This document shows, in pieces, positions 20,701 to 30,601 of a stretch of 30,937 nt of DNA. Every line of letters begins with the position of its first letter. Positions within the stretch are counted from its first letter, which is position 1. The stretch lies in the IMG/VR virus record IMGVR_UViG_3300046794_000244, positions 1-30,937 of that record. One strand, 5' to 3'. Origin of the DNA: a virus. A model generated the notes under the pieces. The model saw only the letters and a program-made list of their open reading frames with translations, ran no database searches and was not told the DNA's origin. The position numbers and the translations under genes are program-made.

Positions 20701-21224
20701 TCCCCACGCCGTACCGGCTGTTGACCGTTGGCGTGTTGTTGACCGCATTGGTCGGCGGATCTGCCGCGTCGGCCTGGAAGGTTCAGGACTGGCGTTACGG
20801 CAACCAACTCGCCGAACAGGCCGGCCTGCACAAGGACGATCTGATCGCCATCAGCAACGCCGCCGCTGACCAGGTGCGCACCGCACAGGACAAGCGCCTG
20901 GCCCTTGAGCAGCGGCTGTCGGCCAGCGAACAAACCCACTACAAGGAACTCAGCGATGCTCAAACCAACCAGGCTCGCCTGCGTGATCGCCTTGCCACTG
21001 CTGACCTACGGCTGTCAGTCCTACTCGACGCCACCGATACAGCCAGTGGCGACACAGTGTCAGTCGCCACCCCAGCCGGCGGCGTGGTTCATGGCGGAGC
21101 ACGAGCCCAACTTGACCCAGCGCATGCTCAACGAATTATCGGCATCACCGATGCCGGCGACCAAGGACTGATCGCCCTGGCGGCCTGTCAGGCCTACGCC
21201 AAAGAAGTCTCAACAGCGAAGTGA
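20682..21224 (+). CDS. Rz: Inner membrane spanin Rz
   Basis: A 180-residue i-spanin of the phage lysis family. An N-terminal membrane segment (LLTVGVLLTALVGGSAASAW, about 13-32) anchors it in the inner membrane; the rest is a periplasmic coiled coil (DQVRTAQDKRLALEQRLSASEQTHYKELSDAQTNQARLRDRLATADLRL) followed by a Cys-containing tail. Together with Rz1 it fuses inner and outer membranes at the last step of lysis. It starts inside the lysin gene, 18 bases before its stop. The Rz1 gene is nested in its 3' half in another frame. Confidence 0.9.
   Translation: MRVVDLIPTPYRLLTVGVLLTALVGGSAASAWKVQDWRYGNQLAEQAGLHKDDLIAISNAAADQVRTAQDKRLALEQRLSASEQTHYKELSDAQTNQARLRDRLATADLRLSVLLDATDTASGDTVSVATPAGGVVHGGARAQLDPAHAQRIIGITDAGDQGLIALAACQAYAKEVSTAK
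20956..21171 (+). CDS. Rz1: Outer membrane spanin lipoprotein Rz1, nested in Rz
   Basis: A 71-residue o-spanin encoded entirely within Rz in a different frame. It begins MLKPTRLACVIALPLLTYGC, a short basic signal followed by a hydrophobic stretch and a lipobox LTYG-C, so cleavage before Cys and lipidation are expected. The mature part is Pro/Gln-rich (PPIQPVATQCQSPPQPAAW), typical of Rz1. ATG 20956 is the natural start of the signal peptide; the frame is open further left but that part is unlike a signal sequence. The Rz/Rz1 nesting is a classic phage arrangement. Confidence 0.9.
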   Translation: MLKPTRLACVIALPLLTYGCQSYSTPPIQPVATQCQSPPQPAAWFMAEHEPNLTQRMLNELSASPMPATKD

Positions 21225-21232
21225 AAAAGAGC

Positions 21233-21266
21233 GACCGGGGTGGATGCGTCAACATCCAACCCGGTC
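21233..21266 (+). other. Long imperfect hairpin between Rz and the methylase
   Basis: GACCGGG pairs with CCCGGTC, then one G-A mismatch, then TGGATG pairs with CATCCA around a 6-base loop: 13 base pairs in 14 positions. It starts 9 bases after the Rz stop. No T-run follows, so it is not a standard intrinsic terminator; it could protect an RNA end or act with Rho. Function is inference. Confidence 0.55.
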
Positions 21267-21339
21267 ACCGTCCCCGCAGATTGCCCCTGCAAGTCCAGCC
21301 AAGGCTCTTACTCCGTGCACGAAGCGCGGCGAGCCTAGC

Positions 21340-21359
21340 ACCTGTTTATCCATACAGTA
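21340..21359 (+). promoter_or_regulatory. LexA (SOS) box upstream of the methylase
   Basis: CTGTTTATCCATACAG (21342-21357) fits CTG-N10-CAG and matches 13 of 16 positions of the E. coli LexA consensus CTGTATATATATACAG. It lies 16 bases before the methylase ATG, where bound LexA would block transcription. No convincing -35 is visible. Recognition by Pseudomonas LexA, which uses a similar motif, is expected from the family. Confidence 0.65.
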
Positions 21360-21373
21360 AAGGTCTTGCTCTC

Positions 21374-22168
21374 ATGTCTTCACCCATCATTCCTTGGATG
21401 GGCGGCAAACGCCGCCTGGCCGACCGCCTCATCCCGCTCTTCCCACCACATGAATGCTACGTCGAAGTCTTTGCCGGCGGTGCCGCGCTGTACTTCATGC
21501 GACCCCAAGCCGCTCCGGTTGAAGTCCTCAACGATATCAACGGCGACCTGGTCACGCTGTACCGCGTCGTGCAGAACCACCTCGAAGAATTCGTGCGCCA
21601 GTTCAAATGGGCGCTCAGTTCGCGTCAGGTGTTCGAGTGGCAGAAGATGACCCGCCCTGAAACTCTCACCGATATCCAGCGCGCCGCCCGATTCTTTTAT
21701 CTGCAGCACCATGCCTTCGCTGGCAAGGTCACCGGGCAGACGTTCGGTACAGCAACCACCGGCCCGGCCATCAACCTGTTACGGATCGAGGAAAACCTCT
21801 CGGCCGCCTGGCAGCGTCTGTCCGGCACCTACGTCGAACACTTGCCCTGGCTCGAATGCGCGGAGCGCTACGACCGTGCTCATACCTTCCATTACATGGA
21901 CCCGCCTTACTGGCAGACCGCTGGCTATGGGGTAGAATTTCCGTTCGAGAACTATGAGCGGATGGCCGACTTCATGCGCCGCTGCAAAGGCAAGGTGATG
22001 GTCAGCATCAACGACCACCCGGACATTCGGCGTGTGTTCGAGGGCTTTCACTTTGAGACGCTCGACATCCGTTACTGCAACACCAACCAGCGGCAGGGCA
22101 AAGCTGAGGTGAGTGGCGAGCTGGTGATTATGAACTGGGAGCCTGCGGCATTGGGAGGATTGTTCTAA
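21374..22168 (+). CDS. DNA adenine methylase, D12 class (Dam-like)
   Basis: A 264-residue N6-adenine methyltransferase. Motif I-like SAM site is PWMGGKRRLADRL (about 7-19) with VEVFAGGAALYFM (30-42) and VLNDINGDLV (51-60); the catalytic motif IV is DPPYW at 176-180; the C-terminal part has the NTNQRQGKAEVSGELVIMNW region of D12 enzymes. The recognition site cannot be read from sequence. ATG 21374 fits the family start; the frame is open further left through a hairpin and a LexA box. Placed right after the lysis genes it looks like a moron that may protect phage DNA from host restriction. No partner endonuclease is adjacent. Confidence 0.9.
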   Translation: MSSPIIPWMGGKRRLADRLIPLFPPHECYVEVFAGGAALYFMRPQAAPVEVLNDINGDLVTLYRVVQNHLEEFVRQFKWALSSRQVFEWQKMTRPETLTDIQRAARFFYLQHHAFAGKVTGQTFGTATTGPAINLLRIEENLSAAWQRLSGTYVEHLPWLECAERYDRAHTFHYMDPPYWQTAGYGVEFPFENYERMADFMRRCKGKVMVSINDHPDIRRVFEGFHFETLDIRYCNTNQRQGKAEVSGELVIMNWEPAALGGLF

Positions 22169-22227: not shown

Positions 22228-22401
22228 TTACCATATAAATCTGCCATCAAATTCTATACCTTCTGCATTTTTAAGAATCTGAAAATCATACATGCCGTAT
22301 TTGTATTTTTTTGTAATTTTTAACACAAAGCTAGCTGCCATTTTTAACGAGCGGTCAGCGGAATTAGGCTTTATTGCATAGTTGCGAGAAGCATTCCAAT
22401 G
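22228..22401 (-). pseudogene. Displaced C-terminal coding fragment of the RES protein
   Basis: On the minus strand a second frame is open from 22401 and ends at TAA 22228-22230. It reads HWNASRNYAIKPNSADRSLK, then about 37 more residues from an internal ATG (22341) ending in EGIEFDGRFIW. The pattern N-X-AI-X-P followed by D-X-X-L and closing G-X-X-X-X-G-X-I-X-W is how I remember longer RES-domain proteins ending, while the annotated RES frame ends instead in ECFSQLCNKA. One extra base (or two lost) near 22383-22401 would explain it. No ribosome site precedes ATG 22341, so an independent gene is less likely. Confidence 0.5.
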
Positions 22402-23038
22402 CTACGCCGCTATAGGCAATCGCATCTAATTTTGGGTTTCGACTAAAAATTAAGTTGGCTAGAATTCTAGAGTGTATATAGTTCGTGTTTTTTGCTTTTT
22501 TATCCTTTAGTAAAGAGGATAGGAATGCGTCTGTGAATACAAAGCTTTTACCGAATTCATGAGGCATGTTATTCATGAATTTGTTCAATAGGTTTCCTAC
22601 AGTTTCAGATGTTAGTCCGCTACCCCATCTATTCATGTGGGTTATTTCTCCAATAGTTCCGCAGCAGATGGGGCGGTCGGTTATTTGCTCGTAGGCGACT
22701 ATGTGTATATGGTCGCCTTCTTCTGCATTTATTTCATCTAGAGTCGAATATTGATTGATTGATGTATATAAGATTGGGTCGTTTATTTCGTTAAGTCTCC
22801 CCTCTCGTGTGAGCTCCTTAGGTGGGCTTCCAAGCTCGGATATATTCTCAAAGCCATTTTCATCAGTGCATTTTCTCGCGCGCCAGAATCCACGGTTGTA
22901 GTGAAACTCGTAGTTTATGATCTGGTAGTGGTCGAGTATCAGGTTGAGCTTTTCACGTATGAACTCAGGGTCTGTACTTTTTAATATTGAAGATGATAGC
23001 TCATCAAGGAACCCAAGGTGCAGTGTGCTGAAATTCAT
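22364..23038 (-). CDS. RES-domain protein, probable NAD+-consuming toxin, C-terminus frameshifted
   Basis: A 224-residue protein with the RES pattern: FWRAR (51-55), GSPP (70-73), GRLN (80-83), DPILYTS (87-93), STLDEINAEEG (98-108), and later YIHSRILANLIFS and LDAIAYSGVA (about 187-213). RES toxins have an ADP-ribosyltransferase-like fold and destroy NAD+ (MbcT and relatives); the Arg, Tyr and Glu expected in the active site have counterparts in RAR, LYTS and the DEI segment. Usual partners are Xre/MbcA antitoxins; none is present. Instead the gene overlaps the PIN-like gene by 4 bp (ATGA). The end looks shifted out of frame. DNA is AT-richer than the phage core, suggesting separate origin. 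Confidence 0.72.
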   Translation of the reverse strand: MNFSTLHLGFLDELSSSILKSTDPEFIREKLNLILDHYQIINYEFHYNRGFWRARKCTDENGFENISELGSPPKELTREGRLNEINDPILYTSINQYSTLDEINAEEGDHIHIVAYEQITDRPICCGTIGEITHMNRWGSGLTSETVGNLLNKFMNNMPHEFGKSFVFTDAFLSSLLKDKKAKNTNYIHSRILANLIFSRNPKLDAIAYSGVALECFSQLCNKA

Positions 23039-23907
23039 TGAGATGCCCTGTTGATCTGGTAAGTGTTACGGTTTTTTAATCGGTTAAGTGCAGGTACCTC
23101 CGCGTTGAAGAGGTCGGCGAGGATGAGGCATGTTTCTGTAAACATAACGTTCACGTTCTCATCATCGGACATGATCCCATCAAAGTATGTGCCATAGGCG
23201 ACAAGAATCATGTCAACTAGATCGTTACGAAGCCTATCTGGTCTCATGTTGCGCATGCCGCCCCGCGCTGAGCGGGTAATGGCCATGACGTAGCAGGCCA
23301 ATGAGAATCTAAAAATCAGAGTGTTTGGCAGTTCTTCGAATGAGGGACATTTTCTGACGATAGGCGCATCTTTAAATATCTGGCCTGTGATTACTAGGAG
23401 CGTCCTGGCTAACCTGTCTACCATGGAGGACGTGTACATCCGTTGCTCACGGAGGGTTGCTCGTTCTTCCTTGGTGTACTCATTCCCTAATATCGTGAAT
23501 GCTTCGCGCATTTGCTCTGCGTCTATTAGCATTTTCTCAAGATGCTCGGTTGCTGACTTGCCCAAATCAAGAAGTTGCTGGCGGAGGTGCATGTTTCCCG
23601 ACTCTGCTTTGCGAAGATTATTGGCGAACTTGGGGAATTCGGAGGTTTGGGTTTCATCTATAAGTCTACGCTGCAGCCCTTTCTGTCTTCCACTCATGCC
23701 GCATATTTTTGCCGAGCCCTTGAGGATTATAACTTGTGTGGGGAAGTCAGAAACTACACTCATGGATTTGAAAATGCTATTAAGCGTATCGCCTTTATAT
23801 GCCTCCATCGCGGAGAAATCAGTTAAGACTGCGCGGTTCTTTGGATTTGTTAGGAACTCTCGAAGCTTAGGGTGTTGCAATTGATTGCTATCAATTATCA
23901 AGTGCAT
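23035..23907 (-). CDS. PIN-like domain protein (possible RNase)
   Basis: A 290-residue protein with a split PIN-like pattern. The N-terminus MHLIIDSNQL has the strand-Asp start (Asp6); LTDFSAMEAYKG (28-39) supplies a second acidic site (Asp30 or Glu35); NDLVDMILVAYGTYFDGIMSDDENV (228-252) gives the closing acidic cluster Asp229/Asp232/Asp243/Asp248-249 as in PIN nucleases. Between them lies about 190 residues of mostly helical sequence with charged coiled-coil character, much longer than in VapC toxins. PIN enzymes cleave RNA with metal ions. It is transcribed before, and coupled to, the RES gene. I know no named family of this architecture; nuclease activity is inference. Confidence 0.65.
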   Translation of the reverse strand: MHLIIDSNQLQHPKLREFLTNPKNRAVLTDFSAMEAYKGDTLNSIFKSMSVVSDFPTQVIILKGSAKICGMSGRQKGLQRRLIDETQTSEFPKFANNLRKAESGNMHLRQQLLDLGKSATEHLEKMLIDAEQMREAFTILGNEYTKEERATLREQRMYTSSMVDRLARTLLVITGQIFKDAPIVRKCPSFEELPNTLIFRFSLACYVMAITRSARGGMRNMRPDRLRNDLVDMILVAYGTYFDGIMSDDENVNVMFTETCLILADLFNAEVPALNRLKNRNTYQINRASQ

Positions 23908-23936
23908 TAATTATTATCCGCGTTGTTTTTTGGATA

Positions 23937-24653
23937 TCATTTTATTACTTCGGTCACCTGCTCGAATGCTGGCTTATAGATCAGGATTCGCTCGAAGGGC
24001 GCCGGACCAATGCTTTCTCCTTCGGGCCAATTAATATCTTGATCTTGAGATGGGTCCCAAAATTCAACAATGAGAAGTAACCAATAGGTGTCGCATAGCT
24101 GGTAACTTTTGAGTTTTTCAATTTTCTGAGCTACCAGTGACTTTACTCGGGTGATCGATAAAGTCGGGACATCAAAGCCCTGCTGAAGTCGCCAGTTACT
24201 ATTTGGATACTCTTTTCCATCGTGATATAGAAAACGGAGCTCCGGCATTGATTCGAACGCTTTATAACTTGAGTGCCCTTCGCATTCTGATGAAATTTCC
24301 TGAGCAATAGCAGCTAGGCTGTTAGCGGCCTTTTTGATACTCTTACGCTTAATTGGAAAATCGGGATCAAAATCAACGGAGATCTCAAGTTTCCGTCCGC
24401 GGATCGATAGGTAAAGTTGCTCAGCTTGTGAAATTACTTCGCGACGGATTACGCTTTGCTTTTGCTCGCTTTTAACGTCTTTACCATCAAGTTTGTAAAG
24501 ATGAGCTATTTCGATACCTAATTTTCTATCGCCATTTTTTATCAGTACATCAGGCTTGTCGGAATATTCGATTGCGCCAGTAGGTACGGGGTAATGTTGA
24601 ACGAACAACTCAAAGTAATGTTGCTCAAGAATCTGCTGCTCAGTGAGTTCCAT
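23937..24653 (-). CDS. Putative PD-(D/E)XK-like nuclease-fold protein
   Basis: A 238-residue protein, first gene of the AT-rich cassette. After a helical start (TEQQILEQHYFELFVQHYP) it has SDKPDVLIKNG followed by KLGIEIAHLYK: an Asp35 and a Glu48 spaced as in PD-(D/E)XK folds, but the usual Lys is replaced by Ala50. A helix with Gln and Arg (KQSVIRREVISQAEQLYLSI) and a strand (KLEISVDFDPDF) follow, as in several uncharacterised phage and genomic proteins with GIE-type motifs. The second half has aromatic strands (CDTYWLLLIVEFWDP). Catalysis is uncertain because of the missing Lys. A 29-base gap separates it from the PIN-like gene. Confidence 0.6.
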   Translation of the reverse strand: MELTEQQILEQHYFELFVQHYPVPTGAIEYSDKPDVLIKNGDRKLGIEIAHLYKLDGKDVKSEQKQSVIRREVISQAEQLYLSIRGRKLEISVDFDPDFPIKRKSIKKAANSLAAIAQEISSECEGHSSYKAFESMPELRFLYHDGKEYPNSNWRLQQGFDVPTLSITRVKSLVAQKIEKLKSYQLCDTYWLLLIVEFWDPSQDQDINWPEGESIGPAPFERILIYKPAFEQVTEVIK

Positions 24654-24713: not shown

Positions 24714-25394
24714 TTAATCTATCCGTTTGATCAATTCGGACCCATGATTTCGTACATTACCAATAGCCGGGTCAACCTTGAACCACTCGAACGCCTCGGT
24801 AGGCTCACCCTGCAGCAGCGCCATCTGCTCGGCGCGTTCCTTGGGTGTGGCCAGGTCCAGCCATTCGCGCGCCAGTTCCGGCGATAGCGTCACCGGGCGC
24901 CGGTCGTGTATGTCCACCATGCCGCCGGCGCTGTCGGCGGTGATGATGACAAAGCCGTCGTGCTCGCTGGGTTCATGCTCAGCATTCGGGTACTGGCCGA
25001 TTGCGGCGCACAGAATCGGTGCTCGGTCCCTCCGGCGAATCAGGTAGGGCTGTTTCTTCGGTCCGCCCTCATCAACCCATTCAAACCAGTTGTCGATGGC
25101 AATGATTGCCCGGTGCGGCCAGATCGCTTTAAAGAATGGACCATGGGCGACTTTCTCAACCCTGGCATTGATCGGCGCGGCGCGGTCTTTGGCCCAGTGC
25201 GGGCGCCATCCCCAGCGCACCATGTCGGCCCGCAGGTACTCCCCTTCCTTGTGGAAGAGGGCGAGCTGCGTGGTTGGCGCGGCGTTATAGCGTTCGAAAG
25301 GCTGGTCGCCGGCATAGTTGAGCAGGGCGTTAGGAATGCTGAGCGCCGCGACAAAGTCGTGAATGCCCCGGTACTGGGAAAGGCGTCCGCACAT
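24714..25394 (-). CDS. yedK: SOS response-associated peptidase YedK (SRAP/HMCES)
   Basis: A 226-residue SRAP protein that crosslinks to abasic sites in single-stranded DNA and shields them. Cys2 directly after Met forms the thiazolidine crosslink; the other active residues are visible: Asn76 in INARVE, Glu105 in DNWFEW and His163 in DIHDRRPVTL. Length is normal for the family (E. coli YedK 222). GGAGGG precedes the start. It follows the Cys-tail protein by 23 bases on the same strand and so probably shares its LexA-controlled promoter. YedK genes are common in Pseudomonas prophages. Confidence 0.95.
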   Translation of the reverse strand: MCGRLSQYRGIHDFVAALSIPNALLNYAGDQPFERYNAAPTTQLALFHKEGEYLRADMVRWGWRPHWAKDRAAPINARVEKVAHGPFFKAIWPHRAIIAIDNWFEWVDEGGPKKQPYLIRRRDRAPILCAAIGQYPNAEHEPSEHDGFVIITADSAGGMVDIHDRRPVTLSPELAREWLDLATPKERAEQMALLQGEPTEAFEWFKVDPAIGNVRNHGSELIKRID

Positions 25395-25417
25395 GATTGC
25401 ACCCTCCGGCTATGTAT

Positions 25418-26146
25418 TCAGGGTAGACCAGTGGCCGCCGGCTTCATTACAAACCCTCTGCCAGCACAGGTCGGGCAATCTTCACACCGGTCAAAACGAT
25501 CGAGGCAGGCCGGACAAGTGCCGAACCTTGCCAGGTCGATAAGGGGCCGCACTCTTTCGAAGGTGCGCAGATTGCGGCACTCCTGGGCGACTTGGGCGAC
25601 GTCCACCAATGCGCGGTAGAGGTCCGGATCCACGATCGGCTCGTAGTTGACGCCCTCGACTGTCCTTCCAGTTTCTATGAGGTCGTACTGCTGCCCATCC
25701 GGCAGGGTCAAGGTAAGTCCGGTAATTCTCGCAACTACCCCGGACGGGTTGAACACAAGGTTCGCTCCAGTGGCATCACCGTAAATCTTCCCGTTGTAAG
25801 AGGATCGCGCACCTTCGGCAAGCGTGCTCGAGGCATAGAAAATCGAACGCCCAATCTTGCCAAACAGCTCGGTGCTTCCGTGCCGTATTACGTCGTAGGC
25901 AGAGGCGCCGCAGTAGCGGCCCGGCGCGGTCTGCAATTCCTCCACTGCGTGCCAGTAGGCAGCGTTCGCCATCTCGTTCATGTCGAACTGCTGGAGCTCA
26001 TCAATCAACCCTTCGACTGCCAGGGTGGCGCTCATTGAGTGAAGGGTCTGTCGGTGGGCCTCGGGGTTCTGCATTCGAAAGTCGTGGTCGTCGAGGGTCG
26101 TGCGCCACTGCTGAAGTCTCAGCGCTTTAGCCTGGTCGAAATTCAT
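25418..26146 (-). CDS. Unknown protein with C-terminal CXXC zinc-ribbon-like tail
   Basis: A 242-residue protein that I cannot name. It begins with helices (NFDQAKALRLQQWRTTLDDHD), has a central beta-rich part (SGVVARITGLTLTLPDGQQYDLIETG) and ends with CPACLDRFDRCEDCPTCAGRGFV, four CXXC-like pairs resembling the zinc-binding repeat of DnaJ. It lies directly behind a LexA box and 23 bases ahead of yedK in a likely SOS operon, so a role in DNA damage response or phage DNA handling is possible but unproven. No clear Shine-Dalgarno is visible before ATG 26146. Confidence 0.75.
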   Translation of the reverse strand: MNFDQAKALRLQQWRTTLDDHDFRMQNPEAHRQTLHSMSATLAVEGLIDELQQFDMNEMANAAYWHAVEELQTAPGRYCGASAYDVIRHGSTELFGKIGRSIFYASSTLAEGARSSYNGKIYGDATGANLVFNPSGVVARITGLTLTLPDGQQYDLIETGRTVEGVNYEPIVDPDLYRALVDVAQVAQECRNLRTFERVRPLIDLARFGTCPACLDRFDRCEDCPTCAGRGFVMKPAATGLP

Positions 26147-26168
26147 GAAAACGGGTTCGCTGTACAGA

Positions 26169-26188
26169 TACTGGTTGCATGTACAGTA
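26169..26188 (-). promoter_or_regulatory. LexA (SOS) box upstream of the yedK operon
   Basis: TACTGGTTGCATGTACAGTA has CTG-N10-CAG with both outer TA pairs and matches 15 of 20 positions of the E. coli LexA consensus. On the minus strand it overlaps a possible promoter, TCGACT-N17-TATCTG, about 20-45 bases before ATG 26146. LexA binding there would repress the operon until DNA damage. Confidence 0.65.
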
Positions 26189-26307
26189 GTCGAGGTGTAA
26201 CGATCCGGCGAGGGGGAGGCGACGAGCAGTCGCTTTACGTCAATCCGCTGTCGTTAGGACGCTAACGCCTTGGACCAGATGGCAGAGGCTCGGAGCGTCT
26301 AGGCTGC

Positions 26308-26439
26308 TCACAGCTCGGCGGCAAAACCCTTGATGCCAAGGTGGTCGGTGAACTTGCCGACGGCCGTCAGGCTGGCCCAGGTGCTAATGTTTCGATAGAG
26401 CCAGACAGCGCTTTCATTGCGGGGCGTTAACCAGTTCAT
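26308..26439 (-). CDS. Small unknown protein (43 aa)
   Basis: A 43-residue frame beginning MNWLTPRNESAVWLYRNIST and ending GIKGFAAEL. It starts 26 bases before the end of the previous gene in another frame, an arrangement typical of coupled translation. The composition, with alternating aromatic and aliphatic residues, looks protein-like. It could also be the displaced end of the upstream gene after a frameshift. No family recognised. Confidence 0.4.
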   Translation of the reverse strand: MNWLTPRNESAVWLYRNISTWASLTAVGKFTDHLGIKGFAAEL

Positions 26440-26719
26440 TGGCTCGCTGCCAAAACGCATCGGCCTGCAGCTGGCTGAGCGTGCCGTCTTTGACGAATTG
26501 GCGGAGCCAGCCCTGAAGTTTTCCGGCCTGTGCTGGCTTTTTAGCCAGGGGCATACAGAGGGTAAACACCATGCTTCGCGCCATGTCGCGATCACGCATC
26601 GCCATCTTTTTGAAGTCCAGGGTGACAAACAGGTCATCGGTGAATTGCCCGGCGCGTGGATCTTCGGCGCGTAGTTCAGCCAATCGTTGCTGCAAGAACT
26701 TCTCTTCCATGCTCGCCAT
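26414..26719 (-). CDS. Unknown helical protein (101 aa)
   Basis: A 101-residue charged, fully helical protein (MASMEEKFLQQRLAELRAED at the start, FVKDGTLSQLQADAFWQRANEL at the end) with a short hydrophobic stretch in the middle (MARSMVFTLCMPLAKKP). An AGGA precedes ATG 26719. It belongs to the minus-strand accessory arm with the small frame at 26308 overlapping its end. I see no known domain. Confidence 0.65.
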   Translation of the reverse strand: MASMEEKFLQQRLAELRAEDPRAGQFTDDLFVTLDFKKMAMRDRDMARSMVFTLCMPLAKKPAQAGKLQGWLRQFVKDGTLSQLQADAFWQRANELVNAPQ

Positions 26720-26883
26720 CGCTATTCCTAATGGTTGTCGAGATCATTATTAACCAGTCCCTAGGGTGCCGGTACGCCAAATGTACGGGTGATGGTAGCC
26801 GCGAGTGGCCCAGACTGCAGCCAGCAGCGCGGTGTGTGGGGGGCGGTTGAACATAAACGGCGTTTCTCGTAACACCGCAGAAC

Positions 26884-27084
26884 TTACTTTTGCATCCGCT
26901 TCGGCAGGAATACCCTGGCATTGCCGGTCGATTCAGCGGCACGGCCCAAATGGTACTCGGCGTACTGGTCGTTACCGTCGCAGCGGTCGAACAACCCCAG
27001 TAATTGCCAGCCTTCATCCAACAGCTCTTGGGCTTGAGCTTGCGTGGTTACCATCTTCAAAACCTTCGTGTCTTCGATCGCCAT
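26884..27084 (-). CDS. Small unknown protein (66 aa)
   Basis: A 66-residue protein with a good AAGGAG ribosome site 8-9 bases before ATG 27084. The core is KMVTTQAQAQELLDEGWQLL, a helix with a Glu-Gly-Trp turn seen in small DUF1737-like proteins, then a polar middle and a basic tail (RVFLPKRMQK). The strong ribosome site supports expression. The 164 bases between it and the next gene downstream hold no feature I can support. Confidence 0.65.
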   Translation of the reverse strand: MAIEDTKVLKMVTTQAQAQELLDEGWQLLGLFDRCDGNDQYAEYHLGRAAESTGNARVFLPKRMQK

Positions 27085-27317
27085 CGGTACCGCTCCTTGT
27101 TGAGTGAGCTAACAGTGTAGGCACGGAGCCCAATACGGGCGTTAGTACCGATCAGTAGTCGACGGAAAAGTTATTTCGGTGGTGGCGTCAGTGACGAACC
27201 AGCGGCAATAGCCCAGAACCGCCGGCAATAATCCAATAGTATCGACCGCCTGTTGCAGTCCCTTTAATACCTTGGCCCTCGGGAGGATTCGGGTCGGTGT
27301 CGGCGTTGGACAGAGGT

Positions 27318-27527
27318 TTACTCTGGCGTCATAAGGACCGCCAGTGTCATCTTGATGAACTCCTCGTTACGGTCGATTGCGGTCAAAGCGCCGCGCACGT
27401 TATCGGCGACCTCGCCTGATCCGCGCTGCTCAACCCAATTTGTGAGTTCCAGAATGGCCGCTTCGAGGGCGAGTTGGTTTTCATTGATCTTAAAGAGTAG
27501 GGAAGGGAGCAGGTCTGAGTTTGGCAT
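27318..27527 (-). CDS. Small unknown acidic helical protein (69 aa)
   Basis: A 69-residue protein, almost wholly helical (LLFKINENQLALEAAILELT, then VADNVRGALTAIDRNEEFIK). GGAGG lies 7 bases before ATG 27527. It is the first gene of the minus-strand accessory arm; the 233 bases between it and the 66-residue gene show no feature I can support. Function unknown. Confidence 0.65.
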   Translation of the reverse strand: MPNSDLLPSLLFKINENQLALEAAILELTNWVEQRGSGEVADNVRGALTAIDRNEEFIKMTLAVLMTPE

Positions 27528-27860
27528 CGCGAATCCTCCGTGGAGAGTTCAGCCTAGCAGTCAAAAAACGACTCGGCGACGGTCTGCGCAAAGGTCTCCA
27601 AGGTCCGCAATCGACCTATGGCGGCCCGTCAGAACTGACAGAGATGAGCGTCCCTAACGCCTTGTCCAAAGTATATGAAACTAATATCACTTGATGCATG
27701 AATGAATCTACTGCACATCAATGAGGTCGCTGAAATTGATCTAAAAAGGGTAGCAAGACACTGCATCGCTTGGAAACGCCTATATTCACCGGAGAAATAT
27801 TGGAGCTAAGACGCTTGTATATCCAACAACAAGAAGTTTGCCAAGCTTGTCAATCATCTA
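27528..27860. other. Intergenic stretch without recognisable gene
   Basis: This divergent gap lies between the minus-strand accessory arm and the plus-strand promoter at 27861. It becomes AT-richer from about 27660. I see no RNA gene, repeat array or credible reading frame in it. It must contain the promoter for the minus-strand gene at 27527, but no good match was found. Confidence 0.5.
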
Positions 27861-27889
27861 TTGAAACTAAAAGCCGGAATATATATACT
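27861..27889 (+). promoter_or_regulatory. Near-consensus sigma-70 promoter for the 54-aa peptide
   Basis: TTGAAA (27861-27866) and TATACT (27884-27889) are separated by exactly 17 bases; each hexamer matches consensus at 5 of 6 positions. The predicted transcript would start near 27896 and give a 5' leader of about 26 bases before ATG 27922, with GAGGAAAAAAT as ribosome site. No operator or LexA box is seen, so constitutive expression from the prophage is plausible. Confidence 0.6.
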
Positions 27890-27921
27890 TAGATGGAAGT
27901 CAAATAATAAGAGGAAAAAAT

Positions 27922-28086
27922 ATGACTTTGCATCAAATCCCTAACCCTTATGGGCTCATCATTGTTCTGGCCATTTTCTTTGGCTCCCTTGCTGCCTTTC
28001 TGTACTGGCGCAAGGCGAAGAGCGATAAAGCAATGAAGGATCTAGCAAAAAAGTGGGAGGACGATCCGCTCACGAAAAACCGCTGA
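27922..28086 (+). CDS. Small single-pass membrane protein (54 aa)
   Basis: A 54-residue protein with a single hydrophobic segment, GLIIVLAIFFGSLAAFLYWR (about residues 11-30), followed by a strongly charged cytoplasmic-type tail rich in Lys and Asp (KAKSDKAMKDLAKKWEDDP). By the positive-inside rule the tail would face the cytoplasm. GAGG is 6 bases upstream of ATG 27922 and a near-consensus promoter lies ahead of it. Candidates are a small superinfection-exclusion protein, a membrane toxin or an orphan holin-like protein; none is proven. It stands alone in an AT-rich part of the accessory region. Confidence 0.65.
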   Translation: MTLHQIPNPYGLIIVLAIFFGSLAAFLYWRKAKSDKAMKDLAKKWEDDPLTKNR

Positions 28087-28432
28087 TCACGCGATAAACA
28101 ACGGCACCGCAAGGCGCCGTTCGACGTTGAGGCACTAGCCCAACTGGTCGATATTGAAGTAAGTAAAGCGCAAGGAAGAAGATGCGTGCATAGCTCTTAA
28201 ATAGAGGAGGTACAATTGATAACGTGGTTCACGTCCATGCACTCACTGAGTTAAAAAGATCCGATAGTAATGGATAGAAACTGTTTGAGCAGCTTAGCTG
28301 CGCTGCCACTTGGAACAGCTGCTACTGGTCGATTGCTGGCTGTCGAGAAAGACAGCGTTCGGCTACAAGCGGGCGCTTAGTGTAGAAGATAAATCTGTCC
28401 CCTTTAGCTCGCACCACGGCGTTCTTCGGGCC
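28087..28432. other. Intergenic stretch with small hairpins
   Basis: Two inverted repeats are visible: AACGGC/GCCGTT with a 10-base loop just after the small membrane gene (about 28099-28120), and GCTGTC/GACAGC with a 6-base loop at 28339-28356. Neither has a T-run. A strong GAGGAGGT near 28205 precedes only a 12-codon TTG frame. No larger gene is supported. Confidence 0.4.
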
Positions 28433-29413
28433 TCACTGAATGTTCATCCACTTGGTCGGATCCACTTGGTGCCATTGCTGCGCCTCGCGATCAAACTCCG
28501 TCCATACCTCCTGCAGCCTGGCGCGATCGCCAGTGAACAGCGGACTATCCAGATGCTTGAACTGGTCGAACTGTGCGACAGGCAACACAGTGCCGGTGCC
28601 GCTATAGCAAAACCAGGTGCCCACCACATGGGCAACCTCAGCAATCTCACGCACAGCTTGCTTGGCGTCAGTCAAGCCCCAGCGCTCCAGCACCCGCCCC
28701 TGTCGGCTGGCCTCAGTGGCAGCATGGGCAATGTCGACGTTGACGTGTTCGATCACGGACGAAAGCCGATCCAAGCGGGACTCAAGCATGTCGAATATCT
28801 CAACCCGAATGAGGTCATCTGGCCTCGAGGCCCCCGCAGTCACGCCGCTGAGCCAATCAAATTCCTCGTGCCGCTTCATCGCAAGCTCATGGTGGTACTC
28901 AATCGGTACCCAGTAGCAATGGTTTCCTTGCCGGAACTGCTCATTGGCGTATGCATCGCTCGCGGCGAGAGTGCGGAGGTAGTTGTATTCCAGGCAAGCA
29001 ATATCTCTGACGTAGACCTCGCGCGTCAGCTTCCCACGTGAGGCGCGGACGTCGGCAATCAGACCACCCAGAGAGCACACGCTCTTGGGGCCGCGAATAG
29101 GCTCGCTCTCAACCAGCCGGCGGATACCCTGCATCGTCCCTGCCCAGAAACCGGACGCCAACATGTCCATTACCAGGCCGTTGAGCTGCTTTTCGCCATC
29201 GACTTTTGGCGCTTGCCGTACCATTTCAACCACGCACGAAAATGCGGCGACATCCCAAGCCATTCGATTTAAGGCCTTACTGATGGCGTTCTCTTCGGAG
29301 TCAAAAATCCGCTTCCACTCTGCGACGCGATCGCGCACTGACGTCTCCTTTATCCTAATTGTGGATATCATCGCCAGAGGCGTGCCGATTGCAATGCCGA
29401 GTCGGGCAACCAC
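28433..29413 (-). CDS. Unknown helical protein (326 aa), possible abortive-infection type
   Basis: A 326-residue mostly helical protein. The first 14 residues depend on a GTG at 29413; ATG 29371 (MISTIRIKETSVRDRVAEW) is an alternative and neither has a clear ribosome site. It contains GFWAGTMQGIRRLVESEPIRGPKSVCSLGGLIADV (about 88-122), reminiscent of the helix and loop of HEPN/AbiU2-type proteins, but the R-X4-6-H catalytic motif is not obvious, so the resemblance is weak. It stands alone near the repressor end of the prophage, a common site for superinfection or defence genes. Function is not established. Confidence 0.7.
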   Translation of the reverse strand: MVARLGIAIGTPLAMISTIRIKETSVRDRVAEWKRIFDSEENAISKALNRMAWDVAAFSCVVEMVRQAPKVDGEKQLNGLVMDMLASGFWAGTMQGIRRLVESEPIRGPKSVCSLGGLIADVRASRGKLTREVYVRDIACLEYNYLRTLAASDAYANEQFRQGNHCYWVPIEYHHELAMKRHEEFDWLSGVTAGASRPDDLIRVEIFDMLESRLDRLSSVIEHVNVDIAHAATEASRQGRVLERWGLTDAKQAVREIAEVAHVVGTWFCYSGTGTVLPVAQFDQFKHLDSPLFTGDRARLQEVWTEFDREAQQWHQVDPTKWMNIQ

Positions 29414-29857
29414 TCACTCGTAAGCGGCAGCTTCTAGCCGAAACTAGTCTGTCGGGATTGCTTACATTCCGAATTGCGCAGAGCTGATGGGGCAAAAATG
29501 GGGCAACTCATACGCCAATTCATGCCAATCAATGCCAGTTATGCGTTTATGCATGCTCGATGAAAGTGCTACAAACCCCAGTAAGGGCGGGAGTTTCGCC
29601 TCCTTTACCGTTAATACTCCAGCACAATCGGCGTGTGGGAGGACAGATCGGAGAGCGCTTTATTCATCGGATATAGGCAAATTCGTTGAAAGGTGTGGGG
29701 CAAAGGAGGGGCATCGGCCCGGCTTTTCCGCGATGGGCGCAAGGTTACCATGGGCGGTCCGACCTACGCAGGCGTGAAAGCCTCAAGGCAAAGTATTCGT
29801 GGTCTATGCACAAATTATGCAATTTGGCATTTGTCTTCCGAAAAAAGATCAAGCACT
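29414..29857. other. Gap upstream of the repressor with short repeats, possible boundary
   Basis: No gene is supported here. It holds a direct repeat ATGGGGCAA at 29488-29496 and 29499-29507, a repeated ATGCCA at about 29522-29536, and a degenerate relative of the operators found at 30688-30757 (TATGCGTTTATGCATG near 29540). TATGCACAAATTATGCA at about 29806 is another half-site pair just upstream of the repressor. Because gene content changes here from accessory to regulatory, an integration boundary is possible but not shown. Confidence 0.4.
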
Positions 29858-30601
29858 ATGCGCGTTATGCAAAAACGCAATGTTTCTACCGTCTTAAGAG
29901 CACTGCTTGACCAGCACGGAATCTCCCCCACGGAGCTTCACCGTCGCACCGGCGTGCCTCAATCCACTCTCTCGCGCATTCTCAGCGGGAAGATCGTCGA
30001 TCCTTCGGATAAACATATTTCGAAGATCGCCGAGTACTTCGTCGTGAGTACCGATCAGTTGCGGGGCCGTGCGGATGTCGCGCCGGCCGCCAGCGCCGGG
30101 CGCGATGAATTGCATTCGGAACTCAAGGACATAAGCCTGTGGGATGACGATACGCCCGTCGATGACGACGAGGTGTCGGTTCCCTTTCTTCGCGAGGTTG
30201 AATTGGCTGCTGGATCAGGAAGATTCGTCATCGAAGAGAGCGAGCGCTCTAGCCTGCGCTTCGGCAAGCGTAGCTTGCGCCACAACGGCGTGCAGTTCGA
30301 CCAGGCCAAATGCGTGACCGTGCGCGGCAATAGCATGTTGCCGGTGCTGCGTGATGGCGCCACGGTCGGGGTGAATGCCGGCAAATGCGGGATTGGCGAC
30401 ATCGTCGACGGCGACCTGTACGCCATCAATCACAATGGCCAGTTGCGGGTGAAACAGCTTTATCGCCTGCCGACGGGGATTCGCCTGCGCAGCTTCAATC
30501 GCGATGAGCATCCGGACGAGGACTACAGCTTCCAGGAAATCCAGGAAGAGCAGATCGTCATCCTCGGTCACGTCTTCTGGTGGGGCATGTACGCCCGTTA
30601 A
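29858..30601 (+). CDS. XRE-S24 phage repressor (LexA/CI-like)
   Basis: A 247-residue repressor. The N-terminal XRE helix-turn-helix (about 8-68) contains GISPTELHRRTGVPQSTLSRILSGKIVDPS; the C-terminal S24 domain has Ser159 in RGNSMLP and Lys199 in RVKQLY, the self-cleavage dyad, and an Ala-Gly pair at 118-119 (LAAGSG), the probable cleavage site before the catalytic domain. RecA-stimulated self-cleavage after DNA damage would release prophage or pyocin-type genes. The start is ATG 29858; ATG 29867 is equally plausible since no clear ribosome site is seen. A terminator follows and operators lie 86 bases downstream. Confidence 0.93.
   Translation: MRVMQKRNVSTVLRALLDQHGISPTELHRRTGVPQSTLSRILSGKIVDPSDKHISKIAEYFVVSTDQLRGRADVAPAASAGRDELHSELKDISLWDDDTPVDDDEVSVPFLREVELAAGSGRFVIEESERSSLRFGKRSLRHNGVQFDQAKCVTVRGNSMLPVLRDGATVGVNAGKCGIGDIVDGDLYAINHNGQLRVKQLYRLPTGIRLRSFNRDEHPDEDYSFQEIQEEQIVILGHVFWWGMYAR

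Follow-up and report, generated by a model that had tools for sequence, protein, structure and literature searches.

A phage cassette of predicted PIN-fold, RES-family and nuclease-like genes: candidate separable anti-phage cargo in a variable slot

The question raised by the locus described here is whether three accessory genes, packed together in a phage genome, work as one machine or are independent passengers of the same site. The stretch of DNA analysed, referred to below as the window, spans the 30,937 bases of a virus record (IMG/VR IMGVR_UViG_3300046794_000244), and the cassette, at positions 22228-24653, consists of three minus-strand genes, encoding a probable PD-(D/E)XK-fold protein (NUC), a protein with a predicted PIN fold and a RES-family protein. 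An earlier note, made from the letters alone, had regarded these genes as accessory phage cargo with a plausible role in phage exclusion, exerted jointly. The cargo part of this proposal agrees with the present results: the genes occupy a variable slot, and PIN homologues are found near defence genes at some loci. The joint function is not supported. In our judgement the chances are about even that the cassette represents cargo for lysogenic conversion, with separable and probably anti-phage genes stacked side by side and not tied into one obligate machine. The carrier is most likely a contractile-tailed phage of Pseudomonas; PHROG matches on the plus strand of the window correspond to a tail sheath, a head closure protein, a tape measure, tail proteins, an endolysin and a DNA methyltransferase.

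All three closely packed open reading frames (ORFs) were confirmed, together with the ATGA overlap by which the PIN and RES genes had been said to be joined. NUC (238 aa), recognized from its ORF, homologues, structural model and dN/dS, occupies 23937-24653, the PIN gene (290 aa) 23035-23907 and the RES gene 22364-23038, the last as a 224-aa ORF, frameshifted near codon 216 with respect to 269-aa relatives. The cassette is AT-rich, as previously remarked, with a GC content of 42.9% against 57-67% in 1-kb windows to its left (1-21,500) and 48-60% to its right (25,000-30,500), so that AT-rich parts exist to the right of the cassette too. In comparisons with the related contig L003, dN/dS is 0.131 for NUC, 0.107 for PIN and 0.106 for the first 215 codons of RES; across all comparisons it ranges from 0.05 to 0.13, the two ratios involving the contig L002 being rough, with dS larger than 1. 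Such low values, pointing to purifying selection, count against chance ORFs. Gene order is identical in the genome of a Pseudomonas sp. (L013). Scanning for signals produced 3 promoter-like sites, against an average of 4.9 in shuffled sequences, and 5 terminator-like sites, against 2.8 (standard deviation 1.6); all five of the latter are on the plus strand, and none would therefore serve the minus-strand cassette.

Within the searches made, the trio is limited to one phage lineage, represented by the window and by L003/L013, where all three genes are intact and the PIN and RES genes overlap. The survey for the trio, and for the PIN-RES pair, outside this prophage, which had been suggested as a check, thus found both a second time, in the same lineage only. 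L002 (IMGVR_UViG_2885949775) is a sister prophage, which matches the window up to 24635 and resumes from 23060: at the junction the first NUC codons run directly into the final bases of PIN, and the RES gene is complete, with 269 aa. Retention of the NUC start and of the PIN end shows a deletion from a three-gene ancestor. The RES gene of L002 features a dN/dS of 0.071 against L003, a value to be read with dS above 1 and with most of the divergence possibly predating the deletion. In Bradyrhizobium, L025 contains a NUC-PIN pair overlapping by 10 bases and L064 contains NUC with a frameshifted PIN, in both cases with no RES match nearby; NUC-PIN is the only combination seen to recur outside this phage lineage. 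No PIN or NUC homologue was found near RES at any of six loci (L002, L004, L054, L067, L068 and L069), within the flanks covered and with a weak NUC profile built from three sequences. The deletion variant and the loci with RES only or NUC-PIN only indicate that the parts of the trio are separable. One obligate trio is ruled out by the same evidence, and the joint function proposed in the earlier note is further opposed by the frameshift in the RES gene of the window. PIN may act as a control of RES.

The site itself is variable. The cassette lies between a Dam-type DNA methyltransferase gene on its downstream side (21221-22168, plus strand; annotated phage match to a Dam modification methylase, and phrog_56) and a gene for a YedK-like SOS-response-associated peptidase on its upstream side (24714-25394, minus strand; annotated phage match, and phrog_1599), the latter on the same strand as NUC and 60 bp away from it. 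Among 80 related Dam-methylase loci, kept out of at least 599 and including contigs L002 and L003, a YedK homologue (46-91% identity) was found downstream of the methylase in 31. The gap between the two genes, taken as the distance between alignment ends, is 53 bp or less in 15 of these; some of the other 16 hold DNA with no clear gene and some hold different genes. The slot is filled by RES alone in L139, which is L002, and by the trio in L096, which is L003; other cargo, of unknown function, is found at L091:1821-2423 (200 aa), L144:7876-8733 (285 aa) and L119:7870-9553 (285 and 262 aa), and it is possible that these are further defence genes. No YedK match was found in the remaining 49 loci, 17 of which, having less than 1 kb after the methylase, are uninformative. 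The Dam-YedK site looks like a small cargo slot of the kind described in P2-like phages (PMC9122126). It resembles those prophage defence hotspots in being a small variable locus, with gene turnover, between conserved phage genes, and differs from them in its anchors, Dam methylase and YedK, and in being known here from gene content.

The PIN-like nature of the 290-aa product, first suggested by motifs, was evaluated by structure prediction. The AlphaFold model has a pLDDT of 90.1, and the first 14 structures ranked by VIA-align are all PIN-type (Z 7.1-5.3, 101-117 residues matched), as judged from their titles, rows 3i8o and 7vwo being presumably of this type. Ranked first is a structure from Methanocaldococcus jannaschii, with Z 7.1 and an rmsd of 2.5 for 108 residues, and VapC, SMG6 and Utp24 PIN domains follow. 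In these 14 alignments the PIN chains run from model residue 1 or 2 to 258-289, with some 100-117 residues matched: the predicted PIN domain is built from the N- and C-terminal parts of the protein, and a long insert between the two halves, approximately residues 65-195, is mainly helical. Strands occupy residues 2-5, 25-28 and 59-62 of the model; what follows is mostly helical, with a short strand of two residues (245-246) close to the C terminus. Four acidic residues, D6, E35, D232 and D249, are invariant across 32 aligned homologues, and we take them to match the acids of VapC by order. We accept a PIN fold as the predicted one on the ground that the structural rows, the order of strands and the invariant acids concur.

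When 84,980 species genomes were scanned by pattern, homologues of this protein were found at 34 loci; others are in 11 plasmid records, in four of which less than 80% of the query is covered; none was found in 50,697 phage records. Record titles assign them to Alpha-, Gamma- and Deltaproteobacteria and to Planctomycetes. In samples of related genomes, they were detected in 5 out of 298 of L013's genus (one already known), in 1 out of 185 of L013's class (the known one) and in 3 out of 181 of the order of L021's genome (one known). No model matches the family above cut-off, either in Pfam (2 members searched), in NCBIfam (7 members) or in PHROGs and PADLOC (window member), and sequence searches of the PDB with alignments A2 (PIN), A3 and A4 (RES), and with two RES proteins, gave no convincing match.

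Two kinds of known proteins invite comparison. DS-3, a gene of DefensePredictor, is described as a validated single-protein defence gene of E. coli, whose PIN domain is divided between the two ends of the chain, and which depends on its catalytic residues and lacks an antitoxin (PMC13092281). It appears to be the strongest functional analogue of the window protein: both have PIN halves at the two ends and no adjacent antitoxin found, and the PIN gene is a single gene at many of the loci covered here, the window PIN differing in that it also adjoins NUC and RES. The likeness drawn is one of architecture, taken from a one-sentence description in that paper. VapC toxins share with the window protein the PIN fold and the acidic residues; the VapC chains matched are of about 130 residues, in contrast with 290 residues and a helical insert here, and they have a VapB-type partner. 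No gene for a small antitoxin of that type is next to PIN, where the adjacent genes encode 238 and 224 aa and have no DNA-binding Pfam match above cut-off.

The neighbours of PIN homologues were surveyed for 50 genes, forming 34 clusters at 80% identity, after dropping ORFs no longer than 180 aa, as well as 16 locus identifiers that were duplicates; neighbouring ORFs were picked mechanically, and L014 and L076 stop at contig ends. A same-strand ORF lies within 150 bp downstream of PIN in 10 of the 34 clusters, not counting the PIN fragment L046, and in 4 of these 10 it is a recognisable effector, namely RES, DSR1 (L009/L042), DRT4 (L065) or SIR2 (L066). The assignments rest on PADLOC, with E values of 1.6e-76 for DSR1 of L009 (L042 being counted for its 88% identical DNA), 6.5e-177 for DRT4 and 2.3e-15 for SIR2, a gene that in Pfam stays below the cut-off. 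These three abortive-infection effectors, found directly downstream of PIN homologues elsewhere, are not present in the window. Genes for a cytosine methyltransferase, Upx and Abi_alpha are also near PIN at some loci.

The idea that DSR1 systems cannot do without PIN was considered and rejected: three DSR1 orthologues (L157-L159), 77-83% identical to that of L009, occur alone, indicating that DSR1 does not need PIN. Overall, no PIN match was found in flanks of about 3 kb on each side, where the record allows, at seven effector loci (L157-L159, the distant DSR1 genes L162 and L163, the DRT4 relative L160 and the SIR2 relative L161); these were seven of 31 rows listed (one being L009's own record), from searches matching 1, 187 and 60 records.

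Other arrangements were observed around PIN homologues. In two genomes of L013's genus, one and the same site next to a LysR gene, with flanks 84-90% identical, is occupied by AT-rich cassettes that are unrelated to each other (L065:5151-8287 and L066:4511-7589); PIN is 21 bp upstream of DRT4 in the former and 68 bp upstream of SIR2 in the latter, and the two PIN proteins are 37% identical to each other. In Bradyrhizobium L022:6946-10728, only 3 bp separate the PIN homologue from the end of a gene on the other strand that matches Upx in PADLOC (E 2e-149), and in L014:2119-3744, near a contig end, an Abi_alpha (PF14337) gene precedes it by 63 bp. In the rhizobial loci L007, L010, L012, L036 and L037, PIN has on one side a conserved gene of 232-275 aa and on the other a cluster on the opposite strand that includes a gene of 504-505 aa, the latter being a DNA cytosine methyltransferase where annotated; a very short patch repair endonuclease is annotated in L007 and L010. 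A 1241-aa partner overlapping PIN in Azospirillum (L006/L040), with no Pfam or PADLOC match, was discarded, as by eye it looks like a spurious GC-rich frame.

The RES call, also made in the earlier note, is supported by annotated relatives. A tblastn search retrieved a Polaromonas plasmid protein (L004), annotated 'RES family NAD+ phosphorylase', with 33% identity over 80% of the query (E 1e-27), which passes the Pfam family PF08808 (E 1.2e-14). Scores for L004 and for L067 and L068, two relatives from L013's genus, are 55, 46.1 and 31.8 bits, against a cut-off of 23.2; identity to the RES protein of L003 amounts to 30% for L004 and 26% for L067. No direct match to PF08808 was found for the RES proteins of the window (E up to 10) and of L003 (E up to 0.1), and the window protein is assigned to the RES family by way of the homologues that pass it. 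Residues R53, R55, R81, Y91, E102, S190 and N219 are invariant in six RES relatives (alignment A4, window copy excluded). The active site of NatT includes R82, Y93, S184 and N193, according to PMC11535050; the conserved residues correspond to these by motif and spacing only, and a PDB search retrieved no RES chain.

The earlier note had let the RES frame run to 22228, and had tacitly treated the gene as intact. In the window copy the reading frame departs from the common one near codon 216 and stops at 22364, and the homologous rest of the coding sequence continues in another frame to 22228 (22228-22390, minus strand, upper boundary approximate), as seen by comparison with the L002 and L003 proteins; these are 269 aa long, against 224 for the window ORF, the last residues of which are unrelated. 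The stretch containing N219 and the C-terminal part are consequently lost, unless the frameshift is a sequencing error or is bypassed, and the window RES is probably missing some of its active site and probably has little or no activity. Relatives are found in L002, L003/L013, Polaromonas L004, three more genomes of L013's genus (RES is present in 4 out of 298, one already known) and the Peduoviridae phage P88_4B11. In this Escherichia virus (L054:4959-5791) the RES relative is broken into two ORFs, located between tail/regulator genes and the integrase, the latter lying downstream.

No Xre antitoxin accompanies RES, as had been noticed: none of the three cassette proteins has a helix-turn-helix (HTH) match in Pfam, the genes around RES encode PIN, NUC, a Dam methylase and YedK, and no Xre-like gene is found in the cassette. 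RES-Xre toxin-antitoxin modules include NatRT, MbcTA, ParST and GndRX, and phage-borne RES-HTH pairs have already been proposed to act against superinfecting phages (PMC9503650). The window RES resembles such modules in its homology to PF08808 members and in the R, Y, E, S and N residues conserved in its intact relatives. It differs from them because it has no Xre antitoxin and has nuclease-like neighbours, because PF08808 misses the phage proteins directly, and because the window copy is frameshifted.

For NUC, the proposed PD-(D/E)XK likeness could be sustained in part. In the searches made, homologues were found only in L003/L013 (87% identity) and in Bradyrhizobium L025 and L064; the L025 protein is 40% identical to that of the window and the L064 protein 95% identical to that of L025. 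Three sequences agree at P34, D35 and E48, and the Lys expected two residues on is replaced by A, or by T in Bradyrhizobium; this Lys can migrate within the PD-(D/E)XK fold. The order of elements in the model, which is of low quality, is helix, three strands, helix, strand. Among the VIA-align rows are CdiA-CT (6.5), XisH (6.2), SfsA (6.1), Cap4 (4.7) and Hjc (4.3), all of which we take to have the PD-(D/E)XK fold; the top rows, with Z of 7.9 and 7.5, are unrelated. Foldseek against the PDB gave no E below 0.001, and a weak, near-full-length match was found to phrog_35865 (E 0.021), of unknown function. A PD-(D/E)XK fold is probable, as the motif without Lys, the order of elements and several structural rows fit, the weak model and the unrelated top rows being the points on the other side. 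NUC was found in 0 out of 385 genomes of the class sample of L021's genome, in 1 out of 369 of L013's class sample (the known one), in 1 out of 242 genomes of the genus of L030's genome (Bradyrhizobium), in 0 out of 6 and 0 out of 4 genomes of two small samples, and in no plasmids or phages.

If the cassette is a stack of separable anti-phage genes, PIN would be a metal-dependent ribonuclease, held inactive by its own helical insert, by NUC or by both. By analogy with DS-3, infection would free it: a phage product would act as trigger, RNA would be cleaved and the infected cell would stop. NUC might be a helper of PIN or a second nuclease, and RES might form an independent, NAD+-consuming arm, without Xre antitoxin, that would deplete NAD+ on infection.

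Several points weigh against this picture. No family above cut-off was found for the three window proteins in Pfam, PADLOC and PHROGs, or for the window PIN, the window NUC and the L003 RES in NCBIfam; PADLOC comparison, recommended as a check, returned no families for the window proteins (E up to 10) and for the RES proteins of L003, L004 and L067 (E up to 0.01), and no system model was matched. For PIN, the structural Z is at best 7.1, in a range (below 8) that, VIA-align warns, can reflect a common arrangement, and Foldseek, another suggested check, gave no E below 0.001 against the PDB and viral structures. The NUC model is poor (pLDDT 65.7, pTM 0.46), and the likeness to DS-3 is one of architecture. 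Most PIN homologues have no recognisable partner, and several of their flanking genes belong to ordinary metabolism; a zinc dehydrogenase, DnaJ, ChaC, DUF488, a short-chain dehydrogenase and a Clp ATPase are among the neighbours. The RES-PIN link was observed in a single phage lineage. Other RES toxins are described as ADP-ribosyltransferases or predicted NAD+ glycohydrolases (PMC12457610), and as the chemistry varies, NAD+ phosphorolysis is a guess for this branch.

It is possible, though doubtful, that the genes have no part in defence, being accessory functions of the phage (host takeover, nucleotide salvage or prophage regulation) or decaying cargo. In its favour are the frameshifts in the window RES and in the PIN of L064, the split RES of P88_4B11 and the lack of any matching defence model. 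Selection speaks against it, with dN/dS between 0.05 and 0.13 (the two L002 ratios being rough), as do the PIN homologues beside known defence genes at several loci and the turnover of genes in the slot, which fits known prophage defence hotspots (PMC9122126).

Rather unlikely, in our view, is a single co-regulated defence system, in which NUC or PIN would sense and control and RES would kill through loss of NAD+. Genes on the same strand, with short gaps and the ATGA overlap, all intact and similarly conserved in L003/L013, would be expected of it; at other loci, genes for DSR1, DRT4 and SIR2 follow directly on PIN homologues, and the L002 junction shows an ancestor with all three genes. The trio was, however, seen in one phage lineage only, L002 retains an intact RES by itself in this very slot, RES relatives are present at loci with neither PIN nor NUC, and the window RES is frameshifted while NUC and PIN remain open. 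An addiction module of the toxin-antitoxin style, with RES or PIN as toxin and another cassette protein as antitoxin, is improbable, as L002 retains RES after loss of both other genes, neither partner is small with a DNA-binding Pfam match and NUC-PIN occurs without RES, even though RES and PIN are both toxin folds of known modules and the operon features an overlap.

Separable, probably anti-phage cargo remains the preferred reading, and its meaning can be considered at two levels. More broadly, the PIN protein could be a constant module, coupled by bacteria and phages to interchangeable abortive-infection effectors (RES, DSR1, SIR2, DRT4) as a trigger or a brake, the phage version providing RES immunity without Xre antitoxin; this idea, suggested by the unrelated cassettes of L065 and L066, which at the same site both have PIN before DRT4 or SIR2, is quite unlikely as it stands. 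Literature on RES, PIN, DSR1, DRT4 and defence, judged mostly from titles and the opening parts of abstracts, describes no PIN-RES pair, and PIN nucleases in defence as such have already been published (PMC13092281). More closely tied to the locus, the RES gene lends itself readily to testing: it has no antitoxin, shares a cargo slot of a prophage with two nuclease-like genes, is kept by purifying selection and exists in nature in a variant with RES alone. The family of PIN homologues, for which no model scored above cut-off, spread over broad taxa and with defence genes nearby at several loci, is a candidate for an unnamed defence protein.

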